From: a virus
DNA: 30,213 nucleotides
Virus record (IMG/VR): IMGVR_UViG_3300005939_000028
Location: 1-30,213 of that record
Strand: one strand, 5' to 3'
Part shown: in pieces, positions 2,893 to 29,210 of the stretch
How positions within the stretch are numbered: position 1 is the first letter of the stretch
Layout: each line of letters starts with the position of its first letter
Made by a program: the position numbers and the translations under genes
The notes under the pieces: generated by a model
Told to the model about the DNA's origin: nothing
What the model saw: only the letters and a program-made list of their open reading frames with translations
Database searches by the model: none

Positions 2893-3051
2893 ATGGAATT
2901 GTATAAAGTTGAATTGAAAACGCCCTTTATGTTAGCACCTTTGAACTATGAAGGAAATCTCGACCACAGCCAAATGCATAGAACCAAATGTGCAGAAATC
3001 TTGAAAAAGGATTCAAAACGATGTTACTTGATTATAATAACAAACAGGTAG
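2893..3051 (+). CDS. Small ORF, 52 aa, overlapping the start of the SNF2 gene
   Basis: An ATG follows directly on the TAA stop of the preceding gene and has a purine-rich AAGGAAG at 2881-2887. The frame runs 52 codons to TAG at 3049 and overlaps the helicase start by 31 nt. The peptide starts MELYKVELKTPFMLA and has no recognisable motif. Its placement fills an otherwise unexplained 100-base gap in a tightly packed operon, which argues for translation. Without it the helicase would have a long untranslated spacer. Function unknown. Confidence 0.5.
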   Translation: MELYKVELKTPFMLAPLNYEGNLDHSQMHRTKCAEILKKDSKRCYLIIITNR

Positions 3052-4784
3052 TTCTCATAGAAGAGCGTGGAGAGAGCTTCATCGATATTCAAGATAACTG
3101 CCACTTTAATCTATGTGTAAGGCTTCGTGGTGGGAACTATGAAGTTCCATATATATCTTTACCAATATTGATTAAGACTTTGAAGAGCATTGATTATACC
3201 ATAAACAAAACTCAGAAGCTAATTGATTATCATAATAATTTAAAAGCTGAACGTAAGCTACTGGAGTCTCTCAAGCTCGGAAACGATGTATTTATGGAGA
3301 ATGCGGAATGTAAAGAGATTATAACTTACCTGAAAGAGCAGGAAAATATAATAAAAAAGAACTGCAAGAAGTTCAAAGGGTTCTTCGGTAATCAGGTAGA
3401 TACAATCATCTTTGGTATCATTGGAAAGCGTATTGTAATCGGCAATGATATTGGAACTGGTAAAACATTAACATCCATTATGATAGCAAAATTTTTAATG
3501 GAACGAAGGGGTGCAAAGAAAACTCTCATATTACTTCCAGCATCCTTAGCTAAGAACTTCTACAACGATTATCAGACATATTTCAAAGACGGTAGAATGA
3601 TGTTGATATCCAGTGAAGCAAAGAAGAAGAGACCTGACCTATACAAAACATTTAAAACTACACCACGTATCAAATTCTTAATAACTAACTATGAGAAATG
3701 TTTATTTGATTATGAAGACCTCAAAACCCTCAAGCCAGACGTATTAATCGTAGATGAATTCCATAAGATGAAGAACTTTAAAGATGCCAAACGCTCTGCT
3801 AATTTTTTCAGAATGGTATCTAAGTTTTGGAGACCCGAATACCGTTATCCTATGTCTGGAACTCCCATTGAGAACCGAATGTTTGACTTATACCCTGTGT
3901 TTAAATTGTTGGATGATGGTAAAATACTTGGTGGTGAAAAGTTCTTCGATATCAATTTCATTGAGTATGACGAGATTACTTTCAGGGTATATCATTCTAA
4001 GCATAATTATAGTGTCGTTACAAAACAAGTGCCAGTTGGATTTAAGCATCATAATTTCGTTAAGAAGTTAATAAGCCCATTCGTTATCAGAAAGAAATTA
4101 GATTTACCAGCAGGAATATATAAGAAGAATGTTATGATAACACCTAGTAAACCATTACTAGAGGCAATGCGTAGACATACATTAGAAGAAGGTAATGCAT
4201 CTGCTAAATACTATGCACAACGCCAATTCTTATGCGATACAATGCGAGGTGATTATGCCGATAATCCAAAGTTTGATGAACTTGAAAATATCATCACCCA
4301 AACAAGAAGTAAGATAGTTATATTCTCATTTTTCAAATGTTCTATATATGCAATTGAGAAGTGGTTGACCGAGCGTGGATATGGCTGTGTAACTTGTCAG
4401 GGTGGCGATGGTAAGGATGCGTTTGATGCAGTAAGGGATTTTGTCGATGATGATACAAAGAAGTGCTTAGTGACCACAGATAAGATTAACTTTGGACATA
4501 ATATTCAGGAGGCGCAAATTGTGATTGAATGGGAAAAGCCAATTAACCCGACTACTACAATGCAAAGGGCTGGTAGATGCTATCGTGCAGGGCAAACTAA
4601 GGATGTTCATGTATTTAGTTTCATCGTAAAGAAAACAGTCGAAGAGAATATCTTCGAAGCTGTTAATCGTAAAGAAGACATCATAAATAAAATCATAGAG
4701 CCATTATCTGTAGGAGACTCGGATACAAGCCTTGATGAAATGTGTGAGAACATTGAACAGGAAATGATAAACACTTTCAAATAA
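3021..4784 (+). CDS. SNF2-family DNA helicase/translocase, about 587 aa
   Basis: SNF2 ATPases move along duplex DNA and remodel forks or bound proteins. Counting from the ATG at 3021: P-loop NDIGTGKT (about 142-149), DEFH Walker B (245-248), motif III SGTPIEN (279-285), and motif VI QRAGRCYRAGQ (from about 515). Both RecA-like lobes are complete. I prefer the ATG at 3021 because AAGGA lies 8 bases upstream; an earlier in-frame ATG at 2988 has no ribosome site. The N-terminal 130 residues are unrecognised. In T4 the DExH helicase UvsW restarts forks and resolves recombination intermediates, and this enzyme could play a similar part; that is inference. It is the last gene of its operon, followed by a new promoter. 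Confidence 0.92.
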   Translation: MLLDYNNKQVVLIEERGESFIDIQDNCHFNLCVRLRGGNYEVPYISLPILIKTLKSIDYTINKTQKLIDYHNNLKAERKLLESLKLGNDVFMENAECKEIITYLKEQENIIKKNCKKFKGFFGNQVDTIIFGIIGKRIVIGNDIGTGKTLTSIMIAKFLMERRGAKKTLILLPASLAKNFYNDYQTYFKDGRMMLISSEAKKKRPDLYKTFKTTPRIKFLITNYEKCLFDYEDLKTLKPDVLIVDEFHKMKNFKDAKRSANFFRMVSKFWRPEYRYPMSGTPIENRMFDLYPVFKLLDDGKILGGEKFFDINFIEYDEITFRVYHSKHNYSVVTKQVPVGFKHHNFVKKLISPFVIRKKLDLPAGIYKKNVMITPSKPLLEAMRRHTLEEGNASAKYYAQRQFLCDTMRGDYADNPKFDELENIITQTRSKIVIFSFFKCSIYAIEKWLTERGYGCVTCQGGDGKDAFDAVRDFVDDDTKKCLVTTDKINFGHNIQEAQIVIEWEKPINPTTTMQRAGRCYRAGQTKDVHVFSFIVKKTVEENIFEAVNRKEDIINKIIEPLSVGDSDTSLDEMCENIEQEMINTFK

Positions 4785-17808: not shown

Positions 17809-17837
17809 TTGACAATACATACAGAATGTTATAAAAT
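17809..17837 (+). promoter_or_regulatory. Sigma-A-type promoter for the recombination gene cluster
   Basis: TTGACA (17809-17814), 17 bases and TAAAAT (17832-17837) start three bases after the methyltransferase stop. The downstream sequence GTATTGAAAGGA is shared with the promoter at 20760, ribosome site included. Confidence 0.8.
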
Positions 17838-18676: not shown

Positions 18677-18849
18677 AAAAAGAATTAGTTGTTAAAATCG
18701 AAAAGAACTTGAAGCGCATGGATTTGCCAGCGCATAGAAAAAGTATAACTTCTGACAAAGCAATTCAGTGGCTTAAAAAGAATTTATCTTTTAAGAACTC
18801 AGAACATAGAGTCTATAAAGAAACTATAAGTATGTTGGGGGAATTATAA
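18670..18849 (+). CDS. Small basic protein, 59 aa
   Basis: The frame starts at ATG 18670, or GTG 18673, which is better placed after GGGGGG (18663-18668). It overlaps the previous gene's stop, and its TAA overlaps the resolvase ATG. The product (starts MVKKELVVKIEKNLKRMDLP) is rich in Lys and Arg with a central Trp, and is likely helical. Basic charge suggests nucleic-acid contact. Both overlaps make the frame credible. Confidence 0.6.
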   Translation: MVKKELVVKIEKNLKRMDLPAHRKSITSDKAIQWLKKNLSFKNSEHRVYKETISMLGEL

Positions 18850-19433
18850 TGATTTATATTGGTGTTGACCCAGGACTTACAGGTGCTATATGTGCCATTG
18901 ATGATGATGATAATGTACTTCTCAAGATGCAAACGCCATTGAATGGTAAGAAAGAAATTGATTGTAGAATTATTGCCATACAAATTCAGAAGTTGAAAAG
19001 AAACTCCAGTGGAAAAGTTTTTGGAGTTCTCGAAAATGTTGGAGCAATGCCAGGACAGGGCGTAGTCGCAATGTTCACTTTCGGTCATGCGGTTGGAGAA
19101 GTTAAAGCAACTTTGAAAATTATGACAGTTCCATTTCAAGAGGTAACTCCTCAAACATGGAAAGCTGAAATTTTAAAAGGTCTTCCATGGAAAGCTCAGA
19201 CAACTAGATATAAAGCAGATAAGAAGCTTACAGATGAAGAAAATTCGGCTGTTAGAAAAGCATTAGCTTCTAAGAACAGACAAGCCAAAAAGAAAGCCAA
19301 GCTAGTTTCATGTGAATTCATTTCTAAGCGGTTTCCTAGCCTTGATATACATATGGGTAGTAAAAACCCTAATGATGGAATAACCGATGCCTTGTGTATG
19401 GCTCTCTACGCCAGATTTCTACAAAGGGGATAG
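18849..19433 (+). CDS. RuvC-like Holliday junction resolvase / RNase H-fold nuclease, 194 aa
   Basis: RuvC-fold enzymes cut four-way or branched DNA. Residues 3-13 (YIGVDPGLTGA) hold the first catalytic Asp (Asp7); VLENVGAMPGQG has the second acidic residue (Glu62); NPNDGITDALCMALY at the C-terminus carries the last pair (Asp176, Asp180). This D-E-D-D set and the order match RuvC. A 45-residue basic insertion (about 110-155, rich in Lys) before the last motif is longer than in host RuvC and may bind DNA. It opens the group of recombination nucleases. It probably resolves recombination intermediates before packaging, replacing T4 endonuclease VII. Confidence 0.88.
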   Translation: MIYIGVDPGLTGAICAIDDDDNVLLKMQTPLNGKKEIDCRIIAIQIQKLKRNSSGKVFGVLENVGAMPGQGVVAMFTFGHAVGEVKATLKIMTVPFQEVTPQTWKAEILKGLPWKAQTTRYKADKKLTDEENSAVRKALASKNRQAKKKAKLVSCEFISKRFPSLDIHMGSKNPNDGITDALCMALYARFLQRG

Positions 19434-19434
19434 T

Positions 19435-20763
19435 ATGCTAAAAGAGATTCATATTCAGAATTTCCAATCTCATGTAAATAGTAAGATAAAATTGAATAAG
19501 CATGTAAATGTTATATCGGGATTATCTGATTCTGGTAAGTCGGCAATCATCAGATTAATTAGATGTATACTCTTGCGTGAAACTTATTATCTAACACATG
19601 GTTCCGCAAAAGGCAAGTCAACTTTAATATTCGATGACTGTGAAATATCAAGAGAATTTATAAGCACCAAAGTAAAGAAGTGTCCAAGTTGTAAAGACCC
19701 AATTGAGCGATATGAGCAGGTTTGTGAGAATTGTGGACATATCATTGGTGTTAAAACTAGTTCAGATATAACAACAATTGATACAGTAGAATATACAAAA
19801 TTTGGTAGAGATATGCCAGAAGAAATCAAAGAGAAAACCAAAATCTATCCAGTTAAATTTGTGAATGAACTAGTCAATATCAATATGTCAGCACAATTCG
19901 ATGATATGTTCTTTATCGGGAACTCATATAACGGCAGTATGCGAAATAAGATGATATCTGGACTAATCCCAGATGTTGATATTATCGATAAAGAAATTAA
20001 GTTGATGAATTCTGAGAAACACCAACTTAATACCGAGAATAGTATATCCAAGAAGCAAATAGAAAAAATTGATGCTGTGTTGGAACTCATTGGTAGCGAT
20101 ATGACTGATGTAGACAAGCTCAACGAAGATATTGAAAAGCTAAAATCCGATATAGAAACTTATGAAACTGAATTGGAAGCCATGAAATCGCTCAAGGTAT
20201 ATTTTGATAAATCTGAATCCCTACAGAAGATTAAATCGTTCATGGATGCTGGTGTTGATAGATTGAGTAAGGCTACAAGTGCTCTACATACAATCGAACA
20301 TACAAATACAAAACATATCATGCTTATAAATATATTGAGAGATATCAATTTATTGAACATTCTCAACGCAGATGTTCCAGAGCAATTGAATGTTCCAGAA
20401 AGTATGATAACTGATGTTTCGGATATCACCGATATGATTTTCACACTCAACGATATATCTGATGATATCGGTCGGCTTACCCTAATCGGTCAGAAAATTC
20501 CAACAGTTACATTTTCGAAAATCTATACAAGTATTAATAATTTGGATAATCTAACGATAGATAATGCAAAATTCAAATTATATAAAAAGACCATTGAAAA
20601 TGCTAAAGTAGAATTAACCAATACGGAATCTCTTGTTATTGGAAATAAAAATCAACAAATATTACTTAAAGAAACCTTCAAGAAAGACAATCCAAAGGCT
20701 TTCTGTCCAATTACAAAAGATATATACCATGATGAATGTTTAAAAAAGATTAATAAACCTTGA
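19435..20763 (+). CDS. N-terminal half of a split Rad50/SbcC-like ATPase, 442 aa
   Basis: Residues 1-45 show the SbcC/Rad50/RecF start: IHIQNFQSH, then Walker A GLSDSGKS (29-36). A four-cysteine zinc ribbon (Cys83, 86, 97, 100) is inserted within this ATPase lobe. A Q-loop-like segment NMSAQFDDMFFIGNS follows at about 155-170. The rest is coiled coil or helical, ending with FCPITKDIYHDECL, which may be the remnant of the zinc-hook tip. There is no signature, Walker B or H-loop; these are in the separate gene at 21945. The ATG follows AAGGGGA. The protein should pair with that gene product and with the nuclease at 20811. It corresponds to half of T4 gp46. Confidence 0.85.
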   Translation: MLKEIHIQNFQSHVNSKIKLNKHVNVISGLSDSGKSAIIRLIRCILLRETYYLTHGSAKGKSTLIFDDCEISREFISTKVKKCPSCKDPIERYEQVCENCGHIIGVKTSSDITTIDTVEYTKFGRDMPEEIKEKTKIYPVKFVNELVNINMSAQFDDMFFIGNSYNGSMRNKMISGLIPDVDIIDKEIKLMNSEKHQLNTENSISKKQIEKIDAVLELIGSDMTDVDKLNEDIEKLKSDIETYETELEAMKSLKVYFDKSESLQKIKSFMDAGVDRLSKATSALHTIEHTNTKHIMLINILRDINLLNILNADVPEQLNVPESMITDVSDITDMIFTLNDISDDIGRLTLIGQKIPTVTFSKIYTSINNLDNLTIDNAKFKLYKKTIENAKVELTNTESLVIGNKNQQILLKETFKKDNPKAFCPITKDIYHDECLKKINKP

Positions 20764-20788
20764 CAGGTGTAATAAAATGTAATAAAAT
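20760..20788 (+). promoter_or_regulatory. Sigma-A-type promoter overlapping the upstream stop codon
   Basis: TTGACA (20760-20765) includes the TGA stop of the preceding gene. After 17 bases comes TAAAAT (20783-20788). The spacer and -10 box contain the 10-mer TGTAATAAAA twice in tandem (20768-20777, 20778-20787), giving a second possible -10. The downstream GTATTGAAAGGA matches the promoter at 17809. Confidence 0.75.
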
Positions 20789-20810
20789 AGTATTGAAAGG
20801 AATAAAACAA

Positions 20811-21686
20811 ATGCGAAAAATACTTTATCTAACAGATATTCACTATGGTTGTACCCCTATTACTAGGAAGGATGACTATAATGCATCTATATTGGGTAAG
20901 TTGGCGTATGCTTTTGCTTATGCTCGTAAGCATAATCTGATAGTTGTAATCGGTGGAGATTTATTTGATAGACCACACCAATCAATAATAACTCTCATAC
21001 CATTAATACATCTATTGAGACAATATTCTGATTTAACAATTATTTGTAATCGTGGGAATCCAACTCATGACGGTCATATGCATTCATCCCCACTTACATT
21101 ACTGGAAGAAACTGATTTATTAATCACTAGCGATAATAAAGATTTCATGGATATAGATGGGTTTCGTTTAATATTTGCACCAAATTCAGGTATGCCAGAC
21201 GATAAGGATAGATTCTTATCTGATACATTGATAAATTGCTTGATAACTCATCATTTAATCGTTGATAAGCCAGTAATATACGACCATTACCTAATGGAAG
21301 AATTGACAATTGGAGCTGAGTTTGTATTCTGTGCAGACTATCACCCATATCAAGGCGTAAAGGTTTATAATGATACAACTTTCATAGCTCCAGGCTCTAT
21401 AGCAAGGCGAAAGCGAACCAAAGACAATATAAATAAAACTGTAAGAATGGTTGTATTTGATGGTAAGAAAGTAAAGGAAGTTATAATTCCTTGTGAAAAA
21501 GATATATGGATGGAGAAAGATGAAACTAAGCTGGAAACAGCGGTTGAAATTAATATTAATGATTTTAAAATGGAAATGGAGAAAGTTTTGGATGATGTTT
21601 CACTAGAAACTACATTTAAGAGTTTTTGCGATAAGGCTGATATAAGTAAAGAAGTCTATGAATATATGAAGAAAAGGATGTTTTAA
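20811..21686 (+). CDS. Mre11/SbcD-like (T4 gp47-type) nuclease, 291 aa
   Basis: This metallophosphoesterase resects DNA ends with the Rad50-like ATPase. Motif I is LTDIHYG (Asp9, His11), motif II GGDLFDRP (Asp50), motif III CNRGNPTHDGH (79-89), motif IV ITHHLIV (about 150), and motif V ADYHPYQG (about 185). Motif III is usually GNHD; here Pro-Thr is inserted (GN-PT-HD). At 291 residues it is shorter than host SbcD (about 400), as in phages, with a short C-terminal helical region likely to bind Rad50 coils. AAGGA precedes the ATG. It lies between the two halves of its ATPase partner. Confidence 0.92.
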   Translation: MRKILYLTDIHYGCTPITRKDDYNASILGKLAYAFAYARKHNLIVVIGGDLFDRPHQSIITLIPLIHLLRQYSDLTIICNRGNPTHDGHMHSSPLTLLEETDLLITSDNKDFMDIDGFRLIFAPNSGMPDDKDRFLSDTLINCLITHHLIVDKPVIYDHYLMEELTIGAEFVFCADYHPYQGVKVYNDTTFIAPGSIARRKRTKDNINKTVRMVVFDGKKVKEVIIPCEKDIWMEKDETKLETAVEININDFKMEMEKVLDDVSLETTFKSFCDKADISKEVYEYMKKRMF

Positions 21687-21952
21687 TGGAAATCACAGAA
21701 TTCAGAACGAAGATTGCAGATTTAGAAGCTCGCCACACCAAGATTAAAAAGGAATATGACAGACAACAATTTCAATATGAAAGCTCTTTAAAGGAATTGG
21801 AGAAGCTTAAAGTTGACAAACCAGAAGACTTACCAGCTAAGATAGAAGAGCTTGAGAAGAAGATAATTACTTCCAAAGCAAAACTAGCAACATATCTCGA
21901 TAAGTTTGAAACGAAATTAAAATCAATTGAGGATGTAATGGACAATGAATAA
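21686..21952 (+). CDS. Coiled-coil protein, 88 aa, within the split Rad50 cluster
   Basis: The ATG overlaps the SbcD stop (TAATG). Almost every residue fits heptad repeats: two helices (about 1-48 and 54-85) separated by VDKPEDLP, which has two Pro and could be a turn. This resembles a detached piece of the Rad50 coiled coil. The next gene, which overlaps its end, is the C-terminal ATPase half. It may bridge the two halves or bind Mre11. Coiled-coil scaffold is seen; the Rad50 link is inference from position. Confidence 0.7.
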   Translation: MEITEFRTKIADLEARHTKIKKEYDRQQFQYESSLKELEKLKVDKPEDLPAKIEELEKKIITSKAKLATYLDKFETKLKSIEDVMDNE

Positions 21953-22541
21953 ATATCAAGAAATCTCTGCCAGATACAAAGGACTCAGCACACGAACTGT
22001 GAAGCTCCAAGAGCGCATTCAAGAAATCTCAGAAGATGTTTTGAAAGTTGAAAATGGTATGCATGTTCTTTTCTCATTCAATGAGTGGATTAATGATACA
22101 TTGAAAACTCAGCTTGAGAACATAACTAACATGGCATTGAAAAGCATATTCCCAGAGAAAGACCTTTCTTTCAGGGTTATGGCTAACCGAAATAAGCAAG
22201 GTGTGTTCTATGACCTATATATAGAAACAAACAACACCTTGACCCGTTTGCTGGATGCTAAGGGTGGTGGAGTTCTTGACGTAATACAGATGTGTTTGAG
22301 ATTAACTTATCTTATCAGGATGAAAGGTAAATTGAGACAATTTTTATTACTAGATGAACCATTCAAAAATCTTGATGGTGAACGTGTAAACCTAGCTATT
22401 GATTGGCTTTGTAAAATTACCAAGGAATTTGACATTCAGTTGCTAATCGTAACTCACATACCTTCATTGATATTCACAGTAGAAGACTCAGGTAATATCG
22501 AAGTTAGATATGCAGACGGTAAGAGTGAAGTTTATCAATGA
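21945..22541 (+). CDS. C-terminal half of a split Rad50/SbcC-like ATPase, 198 aa
   Basis: After a short coiled coil (1-35) the protein carries the second ATPase lobe: signature-like DAKGGGVLD (104-112), Walker B FLLLDEP (133-139), D-loop NLD (142-144) and H-loop VTH (169-171). There is no Walker A; that motif is in the gene at 19435, and the nuclease and coiled-coil genes lie between. The signature has KGGGV in place of LSGG. The ATG overlaps the previous stop (AATGAATAA), so it is a true separate gene, not a frameshift product. The two chains must assemble to form an active ATP site. The next gene overlaps by 4 nt. Confidence 0.88.
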   Translation: MNKYQEISARYKGLSTRTVKLQERIQEISEDVLKVENGMHVLFSFNEWINDTLKTQLENITNMALKSIFPEKDLSFRVMANRNKQGVFYDLYIETNNTLTRLLDAKGGGVLDVIQMCLRLTYLIRMKGKLRQFLLLDEPFKNLDGERVNLAIDWLCKITKEFDIQLLIVTHIPSLIFTVEDSGNIEVRYADGKSEVYQ

Positions 22542-23011
22542 ATATAAGACGACAAGTTGCTAGATTATTAAAGCGTAAAAAGCTTGTCAAACTCAATGTT
22601 AATGCGCCTATAGGAATGGTTGAAAAGGTGCATTATTTCATTGAGTTGTGCTTGAATTCTGGGCTTTCATTGAACGATATTTACACTATTATATTTGGCT
22701 TAGGTTATGATATATTTGAGCTTTCTATTGTTGAGGGAAGTCAGATAAAGACGCTTCAACAGCTAATGATGATTGCTAGATACGTTAGAAAGACTTTAAA
22801 AGAATTCATGATGAATAGTGATAGAGAATTCGTTCTGGATGCCACAGGAACATTATCATTTATTAATTTTTGTAAAATCAATAAAGTTAAAGAATTGGAT
22901 TTCATGATATACATTGAAAAAGAAAGGTCTCCAACTGTGGATTTGAATAAAATTATATTGATGAAGAGTGAGATTGAACTACTCGGAAAGGCATATCTGA
23001 ATGATAAATAA
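22538..23011 (+). CDS. Unknown protein, 157 aa
   Basis: No family recognised. The ATG overlaps the stop of the ATPase half (ATGA) and its end overlaps the ligase start by 11 nt, so it is part of the same translation chain. The N-terminal 20 residues are very basic (RRQVARLLKRKKLVKL), followed by hydrophobic helices (about 30-60 and 68-90), with no membrane segment of full length. A DNA- or RNA-binding helper in recombination is possible. Confidence 0.7.
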   Translation: MNIRRQVARLLKRKKLVKLNVNAPIGMVEKVHYFIELCLNSGLSLNDIYTIIFGLGYDIFELSIVEGSQIKTLQQLMMIARYVRKTLKEFMMNSDREFVLDATGTLSFINFCKINKVKELDFMIYIEKERSPTVDLNKIILMKSEIELLGKAYLNDK

Positions 23012-24254
23012 TAAGATTGCCAAAGCATTGTTCAATCTTTTAAGTGCTATAAAGAAAGAGCCACGTCGAAATAGAAAGATTAAAATGATGCAAGAATTTC
23101 CATATCAAGAACCATTAAGGAACTTGATGAATCTTGCATACAATAAGAAGATTTCATTTGGTATCACATCATCGGCATTTAAGCGTAAAGGTGGTGGTAT
23201 GTTATCTATGGTTGACCCATCCATGTTAGAAAAGGTTTTGACCCTCAAGGGTAGAAATGAAAAAGTAGAATACTTGGATTGTAATTTAACATGGTATACA
23301 CCGACCGCAAGACAATTTATGCTGTCTATACTCGATAAGGATTTGAACATCGGTATCGGCATTAAGACAATAAATAAATCACTTACAGAAAAAATCGAAG
23401 ATTTCCAAGTGATGTTGGCAACTCCACAAAAACAAAAGTTATTTGATGATCATTTCTCCGATGTTAAGAGAATCTATATCAATAAAAAGATTGATGGAAT
23501 TCGTTGTATTGTTGATTATACTGGCGATAAAGCCGTATTTTATTCACGTAACGGTTTAATAATGGAAGATTTTTTGGTAAGTAATGTGCGCTATGAAGTG
23601 GAGAAGCAGGAGCAATTCAAAGGAAGAATCCTTGATGCAGAAATATATAGTAAACATTTCCAGAAGCTAATGAGAATTTATAGACGTAAAAATGTTCAAT
23701 TGGACTCTTTCATTATCCGCAATTCAACTAGGTTAGCTATATTTGACCTGATTGATGAAGAAGAAAAACCATTGCGTGAACGTGTTGCAATTATGAAAGA
23801 TATTGAAAGTAAAATTAGTAAGTGCAACTTTGTTAAGTTCATTAAATATGTTGTGGTTGAGAATGATTATCTTGCTCTTGGTAAGATTGCCAGAAGTATG
23901 ATTAAGCGTGGTGATGAAGGTATTATCGCCAAGCATCCAAATAAACCATATGAAAGAAAGCGTAGTAAGTATTGGCTTAAATTTAAGAATAAAGAAACTG
24001 TAGATTTAAAAGTCATTGGTTATTATCCAGGAAAACGAGACACTGAATTTGAAAATGCTCTAGGAGGCTTGGTATGTAAACTTAAAAATGGTGAAGTGAA
24101 TTGTGGTGGTGGATTTACAAAGGAAGAACGATTTGAATTCTGGAAAAATCCAGAAAGTTTAATCGGTGAGACTATCGAAGTATCTTTCATGGAAGAGACC
24201 CAAGCTGGTAGTCTACGTCATCTGAATTTTGAACGATTCAGAACAGATAAATAA
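23001..24254 (+). CDS. ATP-dependent DNA ligase, 417 aa
   Basis: It seals nicks using an enzyme-AMP intermediate. The nucleotidyl-transferase motif I is KKIDGIR, with the catalytic Lys at about 163. Motif III-like sequence follows (GRILDAEIY), motif IV is DEGIIAK (about 305-311) and motif V YWLKFK (about 323-328). The C-terminal part (about 335-417) has the OB-fold pattern with GGLVCKLKNGEVNCGGGF. The N-terminal 150 residues would be the DNA-binding domain, shorter than in T4 ligase (487 aa). Use of ATP rather than NAD separates it from the host enzyme. It probably works with the 5' nuclease at 25131 in joining Okazaki fragments. Confidence 0.93.
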   Translation: MINNKIAKALFNLLSAIKKEPRRNRKIKMMQEFPYQEPLRNLMNLAYNKKISFGITSSAFKRKGGGMLSMVDPSMLEKVLTLKGRNEKVEYLDCNLTWYTPTARQFMLSILDKDLNIGIGIKTINKSLTEKIEDFQVMLATPQKQKLFDDHFSDVKRIYINKKIDGIRCIVDYTGDKAVFYSRNGLIMEDFLVSNVRYEVEKQEQFKGRILDAEIYSKHFQKLMRIYRRKNVQLDSFIIRNSTRLAIFDLIDEEEKPLRERVAIMKDIESKISKCNFVKFIKYVVVENDYLALGKIARSMIKRGDEGIIAKHPNKPYERKRSKYWLKFKNKETVDLKVIGYYPGKRDTEFENALGGLVCKLKNGEVNCGGGFTKEERFEFWKNPESLIGETIEVSFMEETQAGSLRHLNFERFRTDK

Positions 24255-27299: not shown

Positions 27300-29210
27300 T
27301 TAATTAAGTTTAACAAAATTTAATATTTCATCTTTTGACATATTCATTGGATTAACTACATGATTAAATAGTTCACTTTTACATTCAAGTATTGAATTGA
27401 TTCTTTCTTCTAATGTACCTTTTGAGATAAACTTATAAACATGAACATTATTAGTTTGCCCTATTCGATACGCTCTATCAGTTGCCTGATTTTCTATTGA
27501 AGGATTCCACCATCTATCAAAATGTATAACTACATTTGATTCCGTTAGTGTTAGCCCAGTTCCACCAGATTTCAAGGTTAAAATCATATATGGAAAATCA
27601 CCAGCTTGGAACTCGTCAGCAATGCGACTACGCTCTTTTGCAGATTTCTTTCCATTGATTAACAACCCATCACGTTTGTAATGATTACTCAAGAACTCAT
27701 TTAACATTTCTGCAACTTTGAGATACTGAGTAAATATTATTATTTTCGATTTTTTATGATGTTTTATAAGCCTTTTAAGCTCTTTAAATTTGCCCGATGA
27801 TGTTTCGGTACCTCTACCATTAAATAAAGCTTCTGAGCTATCACATACGAGCTTTAAAGTATTAATATACTTTAATATTGTCGGTCGATTATACTTGTTG
27901 CTTTGATTTAATTCATCGTTGAACATTTCCAGAACAGCGTTATAAGTATCTGTCTGGCAATCTGTCATTTCGCAGTAAACTAATTTTTCAAGTTTGTCTG
28001 GAAGATTTACGGTATCCTTATTCTTCATTCTGCGTATAAAGAACGGCTTGATAAGTTGTATCAGCCAGTCATACGAATATTTATTTTTGATTGTCTTCTT
28101 GAATTCCGCTAGAGTTCCAAGCAATGTCGGTTCCAAGAACTTAAACAAAGCCCATAAATCAGCAATTGAATTTTCAATCGGCGTTCCTGTCATAGATATT
28201 CTATGATTTGAATGCAGACCACAAACGGCTACAGCAATAGAACTATCAGGATTTTTAATGTTTTGTGCTTCATCCAGAACTATTAAATTCCACATGACTT
28301 CCATAAACATATCTTGATTGTGTAATACCTTGCCATAGGTCGTTATAAATACATCATTGGATAAATCAATTTCTTTATCAATGACTTGATATTTAATGTT
28401 TGGTGAAAACTTCTCAATATGTGAAACAAAGTTGCCGATTAATGTTTTTGGAACGATTAATAGATTTGGACTCTTGTTGTCATACTTCAAAGAATTCAAC
28501 AGAGCGACTATCTGCATCGTTTTACCGAGACCCATATCGTCTGCTAACAACATATTCATATTTGATTTTAAAGCTCCTGAGAGCATTTTAAAGCCTGTCT
28601 TTTGATAATCGTATAGTGTAGCTTTAAAACCGCTTAAATGACCGCTTAAATCGCCACCATTCACAGTATTAATAAAGTGTATATCTTTACTTTTGATATA
28701 TTCTTTTTTACTTTGACAAACTTTGATAATTTCGACAAAACTTAATTCATTTTCAAGTATCTGCCTAGCTATCTTTGTGTCAACGATTTGCCACTGACCA
28801 TTGATGAAACATAAGTCAGAAATAGCTTTTTTGATATGACTTAAATCAATCAGATTTCCATTAACAGAAATACTAGAACTAATCTTTCTGCCCTTCTTGG
28901 TAGTGCTTATCGTCATCTTGCTATCGGTGCATATGATTTTCGGGATTATAACTTCAAACCCCATGTCTTTAAATTTATCTAAGTTGGTTATAAGGTGGAT
29001 AAGCTCTTGCCTAGTGATTTCAGAACGTAAAAATAATCGTTCATCTTCCCACATATCAGACAATAGAGAGTCTTTACAAACTATTGAATTGAGCTTCCTG
29101 AGCTTACTTTCAGACTTTAAAAAGTATCTGAAATTGCGTTCCTTTCCTTTATCCATGAAGGTGAACATGGTATAAAATTTATCGTCTTTGCATCTAACTT
29201 TGATTAACAT
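27300..29210 (-). CDS. SNF2-family helicase, second and distinct copy, 636 aa
   Basis: Walker A is DDMGLGKT (224-231), Walker B LDEAQ (312-316), motif III TGTPIEN (341-347), and motif VI DRAYRIGQ lies near residue 590. It differs from the plus-strand SNF2 protein: it has the classic DEAQ box, DDMGLGKT P-loop and a 200-residue N-terminal region. A segment there (FEVIIPKI) recalls the domain attached to bacterial HepA-type SNF2 proteins. So it may come from a bacterial lineage. Strong AAGGAGG precedes the ATG. It heads the minus-strand group next to the terminator. Its role may be fork remodelling or countering host defence; not shown. Confidence 0.93.
   Translation of the reverse strand: MLIKVRCKDDKFYTMFTFMDKGKERNFRYFLKSESKLRKLNSIVCKDSLLSDMWEDERLFLRSEITRQELIHLITNLDKFKDMGFEVIIPKIICTDSKMTISTTKKGRKISSSISVNGNLIDLSHIKKAISDLCFINGQWQIVDTKIARQILENELSFVEIIKVCQSKKEYIKSKDIHFINTVNGGDLSGHLSGFKATLYDYQKTGFKMLSGALKSNMNMLLADDMGLGKTMQIVALLNSLKYDNKSPNLLIVPKTLIGNFVSHIEKFSPNIKYQVIDKEIDLSNDVFITTYGKVLHNQDMFMEVMWNLIVLDEAQNIKNPDSSIAVAVCGLHSNHRISMTGTPIENSIADLWALFKFLEPTLLGTLAEFKKTIKNKYSYDWLIQLIKPFFIRRMKNKDTVNLPDKLEKLVYCEMTDCQTDTYNAVLEMFNDELNQSNKYNRPTILKYINTLKLVCDSSEALFNGRGTETSSGKFKELKRLIKHHKKSKIIIFTQYLKVAEMLNEFLSNHYKRDGLLINGKKSAKERSRIADEFQAGDFPYMILTLKSGGTGLTLTESNVVIHFDRWWNPSIENQATDRAYRIGQTNNVHVYKFISKGTLEERINSILECKSELFNHVVNPMNMSKDEILNFVKLN

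Follow-up and report, generated by a model that had tools for sequence, protein, structure and literature searches.

We analysed the 30,213-base viral record IMGVR_UViG_3300005939_000028 of IMG/VR (hereafter the window), focusing on four adjacent genes for an Mre11-like nuclease and the parts of a Rad50/SbcC-like ATPase. Positions 18849-24254, all read on one strand (plus), hold a RuvC-like resolvase, these four genes, an open reading frame (ORF) of 157 amino acids and a DNA ligase. The four genes run in the order Rad50 N-half (19435-20763), Mre11-like nuclease (20811-21686), 88-amino-acid coil protein (21686-21952) and Rad50 C-half (21945-22541), and an ORF check returned the same order and frames as a preliminary description made from the sequence alone. 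The Mre11 stop overlaps the start of the coil ORF, and the coil and C-half ORFs overlap by 8 bases, which suggests coupled translation. Judged from sequence comparison and predicted structures, the four genes very probably encode one Mre11-Rad50 (SbcD-SbcC) complex in which Rad50 is built from three chains.

The N-half is a product of 442 amino acids that probably starts at 19435, within an ORF that opens at 19387. It matched AAA_23 in Pfam (E=4e-11), and its family profile, aligned with Rad50 chains of known structure, covered their residues 3-221 (5f3w_B, E=1e-22). Walker A, GLSDSGKS (amino acids 29-36, positions 19519-19542), and the Q-loop glutamine (amino acid 154, positions 19894-19896) lie in this half; G29, G34 and K35 were invariant in 38 N-halves, and the glutamine was present in 38 of 39. 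The AlphaFold model, with a mean predicted local distance difference test (pLDDT) score of 72.5, comprised the N-lobe, an ascending coil at residues 181-418 (helices 181-310 and 322-418, with breaks) and a short hook-like C-terminal region, and its top Foldseek matches were the Rad50 N-lobe chains 9a9j_A, 1f2u_C and 1ii8_A.

The C-half, of 198 amino acids, was modelled (pLDDT 91) as one descending helix (amino acids 2-68) followed by the C-lobe. Its model found 3qkr_B and 1ii8_B as top Foldseek matches, its family profile aligned to the same Rad50 C-lobe chains at E about 1e-17 (2.5e-17 for the C-lobe match), and PHROGs labelled it 'ATPase', with a weaker match to SbcC. Walker B, LLLDE (amino acids 134-138, positions 22344-22358), is followed by the D-loop, and D137 and E138 were invariant in 88 C-halves; the H-loop histidine (amino acid 171, positions 22455-22457) was kept in 80 of them. 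The ATP-binding cassette (ABC) signature reads GGG (amino acids 107-109, positions 22263-22271) in place of SGG, with glycine at the three positions in 86, 83 and 87 of the 88 C-halves, whereas canonical Bacillus SbcC carries LSGGE. Thus the proposed division of motifs, with Walker A and Q-loop in one half and signature, Walker B, D-loop and H-loop in the other, was borne out, the signature in altered form. The two models fell on two different chains of Pyrococcus furiosus Rad50 and the profiles likewise placed the halves on complementary parts of the protein, as expected of a genuine Rad50 split around its Mre11 partner. Since the solved P. furiosus head itself consists of two polypeptides (1f2t_A/B, 1ii8_A/B), a two-chain head is physically possible. 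Those constructs (1f2t, 1ii8, 3qkr) resemble the present proteins in forming the head from separate N- and C-terminal chains; however, they are experimental and lack most of the arm, whereas here the split is natural and both arm and hook are kept.

The nuclease gene probably starts at ATG 20811, in an ORF that opens at TTG 20760. Its product matched Metallophos in Pfam (3e-4), and its family profile matched Mre11/SbcD (4hd0, 5e-18). D9, H11, G49, D50, G82, H86, H147 and H178 were invariant in 37 Mre11 relatives, among them the conserved metal ligands, and the phosphoesterase motifs DxH, GDxxD, GNHD, H and GHxH were present in the family, with the variants GNPTHD and ADYH in the window.

The place of the cut was read from the C-terminal end of the N-halves. 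CPxC was found near the C-terminus in 74 of 77 N-halves, followed by 2-30 residues and then the stop, while in T4 gp46, a single chain, CPTC stands at residue 288 of 560; the break thus lies immediately behind the zinc hook, in line with the earlier proposal of a break near the tip of the coiled coil. Microcystis phage Mvi-JY20 has CSQC instead of CPxC, locus L079 (loci carry L numbers here) has its hook on a second ORF, and gene 155 of Microbacterium phage Magritte, added to the set later, has no CxxC hook. Overall, 76 of 78 N-halves carried a CxxC zinc hook with Magritte and the second-ORF hook counted (75 of 77 without these), and only the window and Magritte were without a complete one. 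In the alignment of relatives C424 and P425 were invariant or nearly so and C427 was nearly invariant, and the window has threonine at 427. Its hook segment, CPIT (amino acids 424-427, positions 20704-20715), is therefore half of a CxxC whose second cysteine has been lost. The same end occurs in two other assemblies (L006 and L007), which makes a random error unlikely. The Cys-Pro hook-like end seen by the preliminary description is thus real, as half a motif, and its suggestion of a hook-less complex fails for the family while it may apply to the window. The N-half of the window also has a zinc-ribbon insert, CPSC-x10-CENC (amino acids 83-100, positions 19681-19734, a weak Zn_ribbon_3 match), within the ATPase lobe; among 77 N-halves it alone had a CxxC within residues 40-170. 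The insert and the loss of the hook cysteine occur in the same protein.

Relatives were reached through alignments and profiles: the window N-half gave no tblastn match at E<=0.01 against 50,697 phage genomes, and a single-sequence search of IMG/VR returned only near copies of the window. Scanning viral contigs with an alignment of C-halves gave 67 loci, and together with phage records this yielded 48 C-halves differing by more than 10%. Almost every one of these is encoded by a short ORF and has in its neighbourhood the genes of an N-half and an Mre11 and an ORF of 80-100 amino acids. Homologues of all four genes were present side by side at 69 loci of phages and bacteria, over which the distance matrices of N-half, Mre11, coil protein and C-half correlated with rho of 0.74-0.82 (best of 200 permutations, 0.17). 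The search for the same arrangement in other phages, proposed earlier as a check, thus recovered split four-gene sets in several orders: N-Mre11-coil-C and N-coil-C-Mre11 dominated among viruses, and bacteria added a third, Mre11-N-coil-C. The genes are clustered in Mvi-JY20 and in Bacillus phage vB_BboS-125, and scattered in Magritte as genes 155, 245 and 2, where the pieces would have to act in trans. The Mre11 gene of vB_BboS-125 (L001:6983-7963; NC_048735.1 22423-23403) is unannotated in the public record, and an AP2-domain ORF (L001:5143-5715) lies between the N-half and coil genes of this phage.

This distribution bears on whether the halves are remnants of a Rad50 gene broken by a recent local lesion or frameshift. 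T4 gp46, one chain of 560 amino acids with its hook in the middle, and the lost hook cysteine of the window would fit such decay. However, the split is common to lineages only about 20-25% identical, the halves have other genes between them in several arrangements, the pieces are dispersed in Magritte, the catalytic motifs are retained, and the relatives are split rather than uncut, so we consider decay extremely improbable. Among the family members we found none that is uncut and has an arm, and T4 gp46 was too distant to be reached by the C-half profile. The notion of a local rearrangement among intact relatives was accordingly contradicted, the only single-chain relative (L128) being arm-less.

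For the 88-amino-acid protein, a profile built only from relatives, with the window excluded, found the window ORF at E=9e-6, indicating a real gene of a true family, and the family consists of two coil-like segments that flank a GVxPExL turn. In many short members the ascending arm (about 160 residues) balanced the descending arm (about 157) with the coil protein counted, which is suggestive only. We take it that the protein is probably a conserved third piece of Rad50 and part of its arm, so that the two-chain complex proposed earlier, supported as far as predicted structures and sequence go, would be extended by one chain. Alternatively, the two halves and Mre11 might form the complex alone, with the coil protein as an accessory or regulator, such as a hook adaptor or an assembly chaperone. 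The coil gene stands apart from the C-half gene in L033, L025 and L020, the three pieces lie far apart in Magritte, and the two segments might form a hairpin by themselves. Nevertheless, the coil distances tracked those of N-half, Mre11 and C-half as closely as these tracked each other, the arms of short members balanced only when the coil protein was included, and the surroundings of the arm-less L128 fusion yielded no coil gene. An accessory role is thus possible, yet we regard it as rather unlikely. Ascending-arm lengths (N-halves in L001-L094) clustered near 120, 160, 240, 280 and 323 residues; these clusters lie about 40 residues apart, as if the arm had grown by repeats.

Two natural fusions join pieces of the set. 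In the viral locus L015, Mre11 and the N-half are fused into 707 amino acids ending in CPLC. In the bacterial locus L128 (5652-7754, minus strand), Mre11, N-lobe and C-lobe are joined within 700 amino acids, with GGG kept and neither coil arm nor hook; this locus adjoins addB/addA. It lay on a long branch inside the bacterial split clade, and therefore looks like a secondary fusion; in its own right it is a minimal one-chain Mre11-Rad50. In the tree the window C-half also stood on a long branch, and its placement is unsure. At the level of sequence, and short of proof of contact, the fusions and the co-inheritance of the four genes support a single complex.

When genomes were scanned, the cassette turned up in alkaliphilic Bacillaceae, in Tissierellia and in further Clostridia-like Bacillota, as well as in one Smithella metagenome-assembled genome (MAG), so the statement that the ATPase is one chain in bacteria did not hold for these. 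Seven weak C-half matches in bacterial genomes (L095-L101), with none of the other three genes present, were set aside. The genes recA and rny flank the cassette both in A. pseudofirmus OF4 and in one Tissierellia MAG, and 9 of 20 further loci had the order recA-Mre11-N-coil-C-rny (L129-L132, L135-L138, L143); this context was thus seen in Bacillaceae, Tissierellia and other Bacillota. In a second Bacillota context a HerA-type (DUF87) ATPase lies directly upstream of the cassette (L086, L133, L141, L144, L145, L146), an arrangement that resembles the archaeal HerA-Mre11-Rad50 operon. Of 199 genomes in the order of OF4, 14 had a split C-half; the Tissierellia phylum had 42 such genomes out of 249, and the Smithella phylum 3 out of 198, two of these three being weak. 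With SbcC scored by TIGR00618 at E<=1e-15, it was missing in 9 of 14 split-bearing versus 15 of 185 other genomes of the OF4 order (p=1.6e-6; four negatives in this set were obtained by subtraction), and it was present in 2 of 42 split-bearing versus 99 of 207 other genomes of the Tissierellia phylum (Fisher p=2e-8; a second draw from this phylum, mostly of the same genomes, was left out of the counts). OF4, Shouchella, Desulfovirgula and the two MAGs examined had no full-length SbcC match; Sutcliffiella had one, and its cassette has the phage-type gene order. The split set largely replaces the canonical one-piece SbcC in many Bacillota chromosomes.

These contexts also bear on whether the genes form an SMC-like defence or counter-defence system of the Lamassu or Wadjet type instead of a repair complex. 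The head weakly matches LmuB, GajA and other SMC-like defence ATPases; these matches mainly cover the P-loop, however, and the partner gene is Mre11. None of the Lamassu, Wadjet or Gabija partners (LmuA or LmuC, JetABD, GajB) accompanies the set, whose neighbours are recombination genes: its chromosomal site is between recA and rny, its phage site is in a replication and recombination cluster, and it replaces SbcCD. A defence system is thus very unlikely.

Several observations weigh against a three-chain Mre11-Rad50 complex that stands in for SbcCD. The model of the window N-half is only moderate (pTM, the predicted template modelling score, was 0.38 beside the pLDDT of 72.5). The canonical signature serine is replaced by glycine in at least 83 of the 88 C-halves, although Walker B, the D-loop region and the H-loop are kept. 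About 238 N-arm residues of the window stand opposite about 150, and in long members generally, the window among them, the N-arm is longer than the rest by some 80-120 residues, so part of it must fold on itself. The SbcC exclusion statistics ignore shared ancestry.

In the proposed mechanism, N-lobe and C-lobe would fold together into one ABC head, and two such heads, seated on a dimer of Mre11, would clamp ATP between them. The coil protein would pair with the N-half coil below the hook and so complete the descending strand of the arm. A break at the apex would let the arm open or be exchanged at its tip and leave the head intact. Such a complex would tether and trim DNA ends for RecA-type recombination, like SbcCD or T4 gp46/47; in the window, which also carries RecA-, RuvC- and ligase-like genes, it may act in the recombination of the phage, and in Bacillota chromosomes it may stand in for SbcCD. 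A broader reading, to which we give about an even chance, is that of a distinct and ancient Mre11-Rad50 class, in which a three-chain Rad50 meets at the zinc hook and the arm is a non-covalent, exchangeable tether. This class would be the main DNA-end processor of many Bacillota, exclusive with SbcCD and shared with phages, and the window phage would have swapped the standard hook for a zinc site in the head.

The preliminary description had also assigned the nuclease and C-half genes a promoter of their own at 20760. Promoter-like sites in the region were not above chance (38 versus 48 ± 8 in shuffled sequence), so separate regulation gained no support, though the site at 20760 (TTGACA-17-TAAAAT) was among the two best-scoring. 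Identical sites of this form occupy 17809-17837 and 20760-20788 and are the top two in 10 kb. Elsewhere in the window, two distinct SNF2-type helicase-like ORFs (2988-4784 and 27300-29210, motif reading only) lie on opposite strands.

The set shares with known Mre11-Rad50/SbcCD systems, T4 gp46/gp47 included, the nuclease motifs, an ABC head split around a coiled coil, the CxxC hook (in nearly all members, though not in the window) and the neighbouring genes. Unlike them, it has a Rad50 divided at the hook into two or three chains, a GGG signature and an extra conserved coil protein; instead of a single chain whose coil returns through the hook, nearly all members are split, and the one single-chain member (L128) is arm-less. 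Mre11/Rad50 fusion proteins are known from Mimivirus R555 and others, and those of Bacillus phage 0305phi8-36 and Anaerostipes are without one SbcC P-loop segment (PMC3175470); a separate C-half might be the reason. Those fusions likewise join the same domains in a non-canonical way in viruses and Bacillota, but no split Rad50 is described there. In PHROGs, family 16465 ('exonuclease') matches the window N-half and family 15167 ('ATPase') matches the C-half, with gp32 and gp35 of vB_BboS-125 as the comparison pair; the database keeps the two apart and states no connection between them. We found no description of a split Rad50/SbcC in the open-access literature, subscription papers being outside the search.

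A central open question is whether the Rad50 arm that joins head and hook works as one unbroken lever or ring. In a natural Rad50 cut at the hook, arm, hook and head come already separated, and expression of a two-chain head already works. The split set also assigns a function to families now labelled 'exonuclease', 'ATPase' or hypothetical, and it offers an explanation for Bacillota that seemingly are without SbcC.

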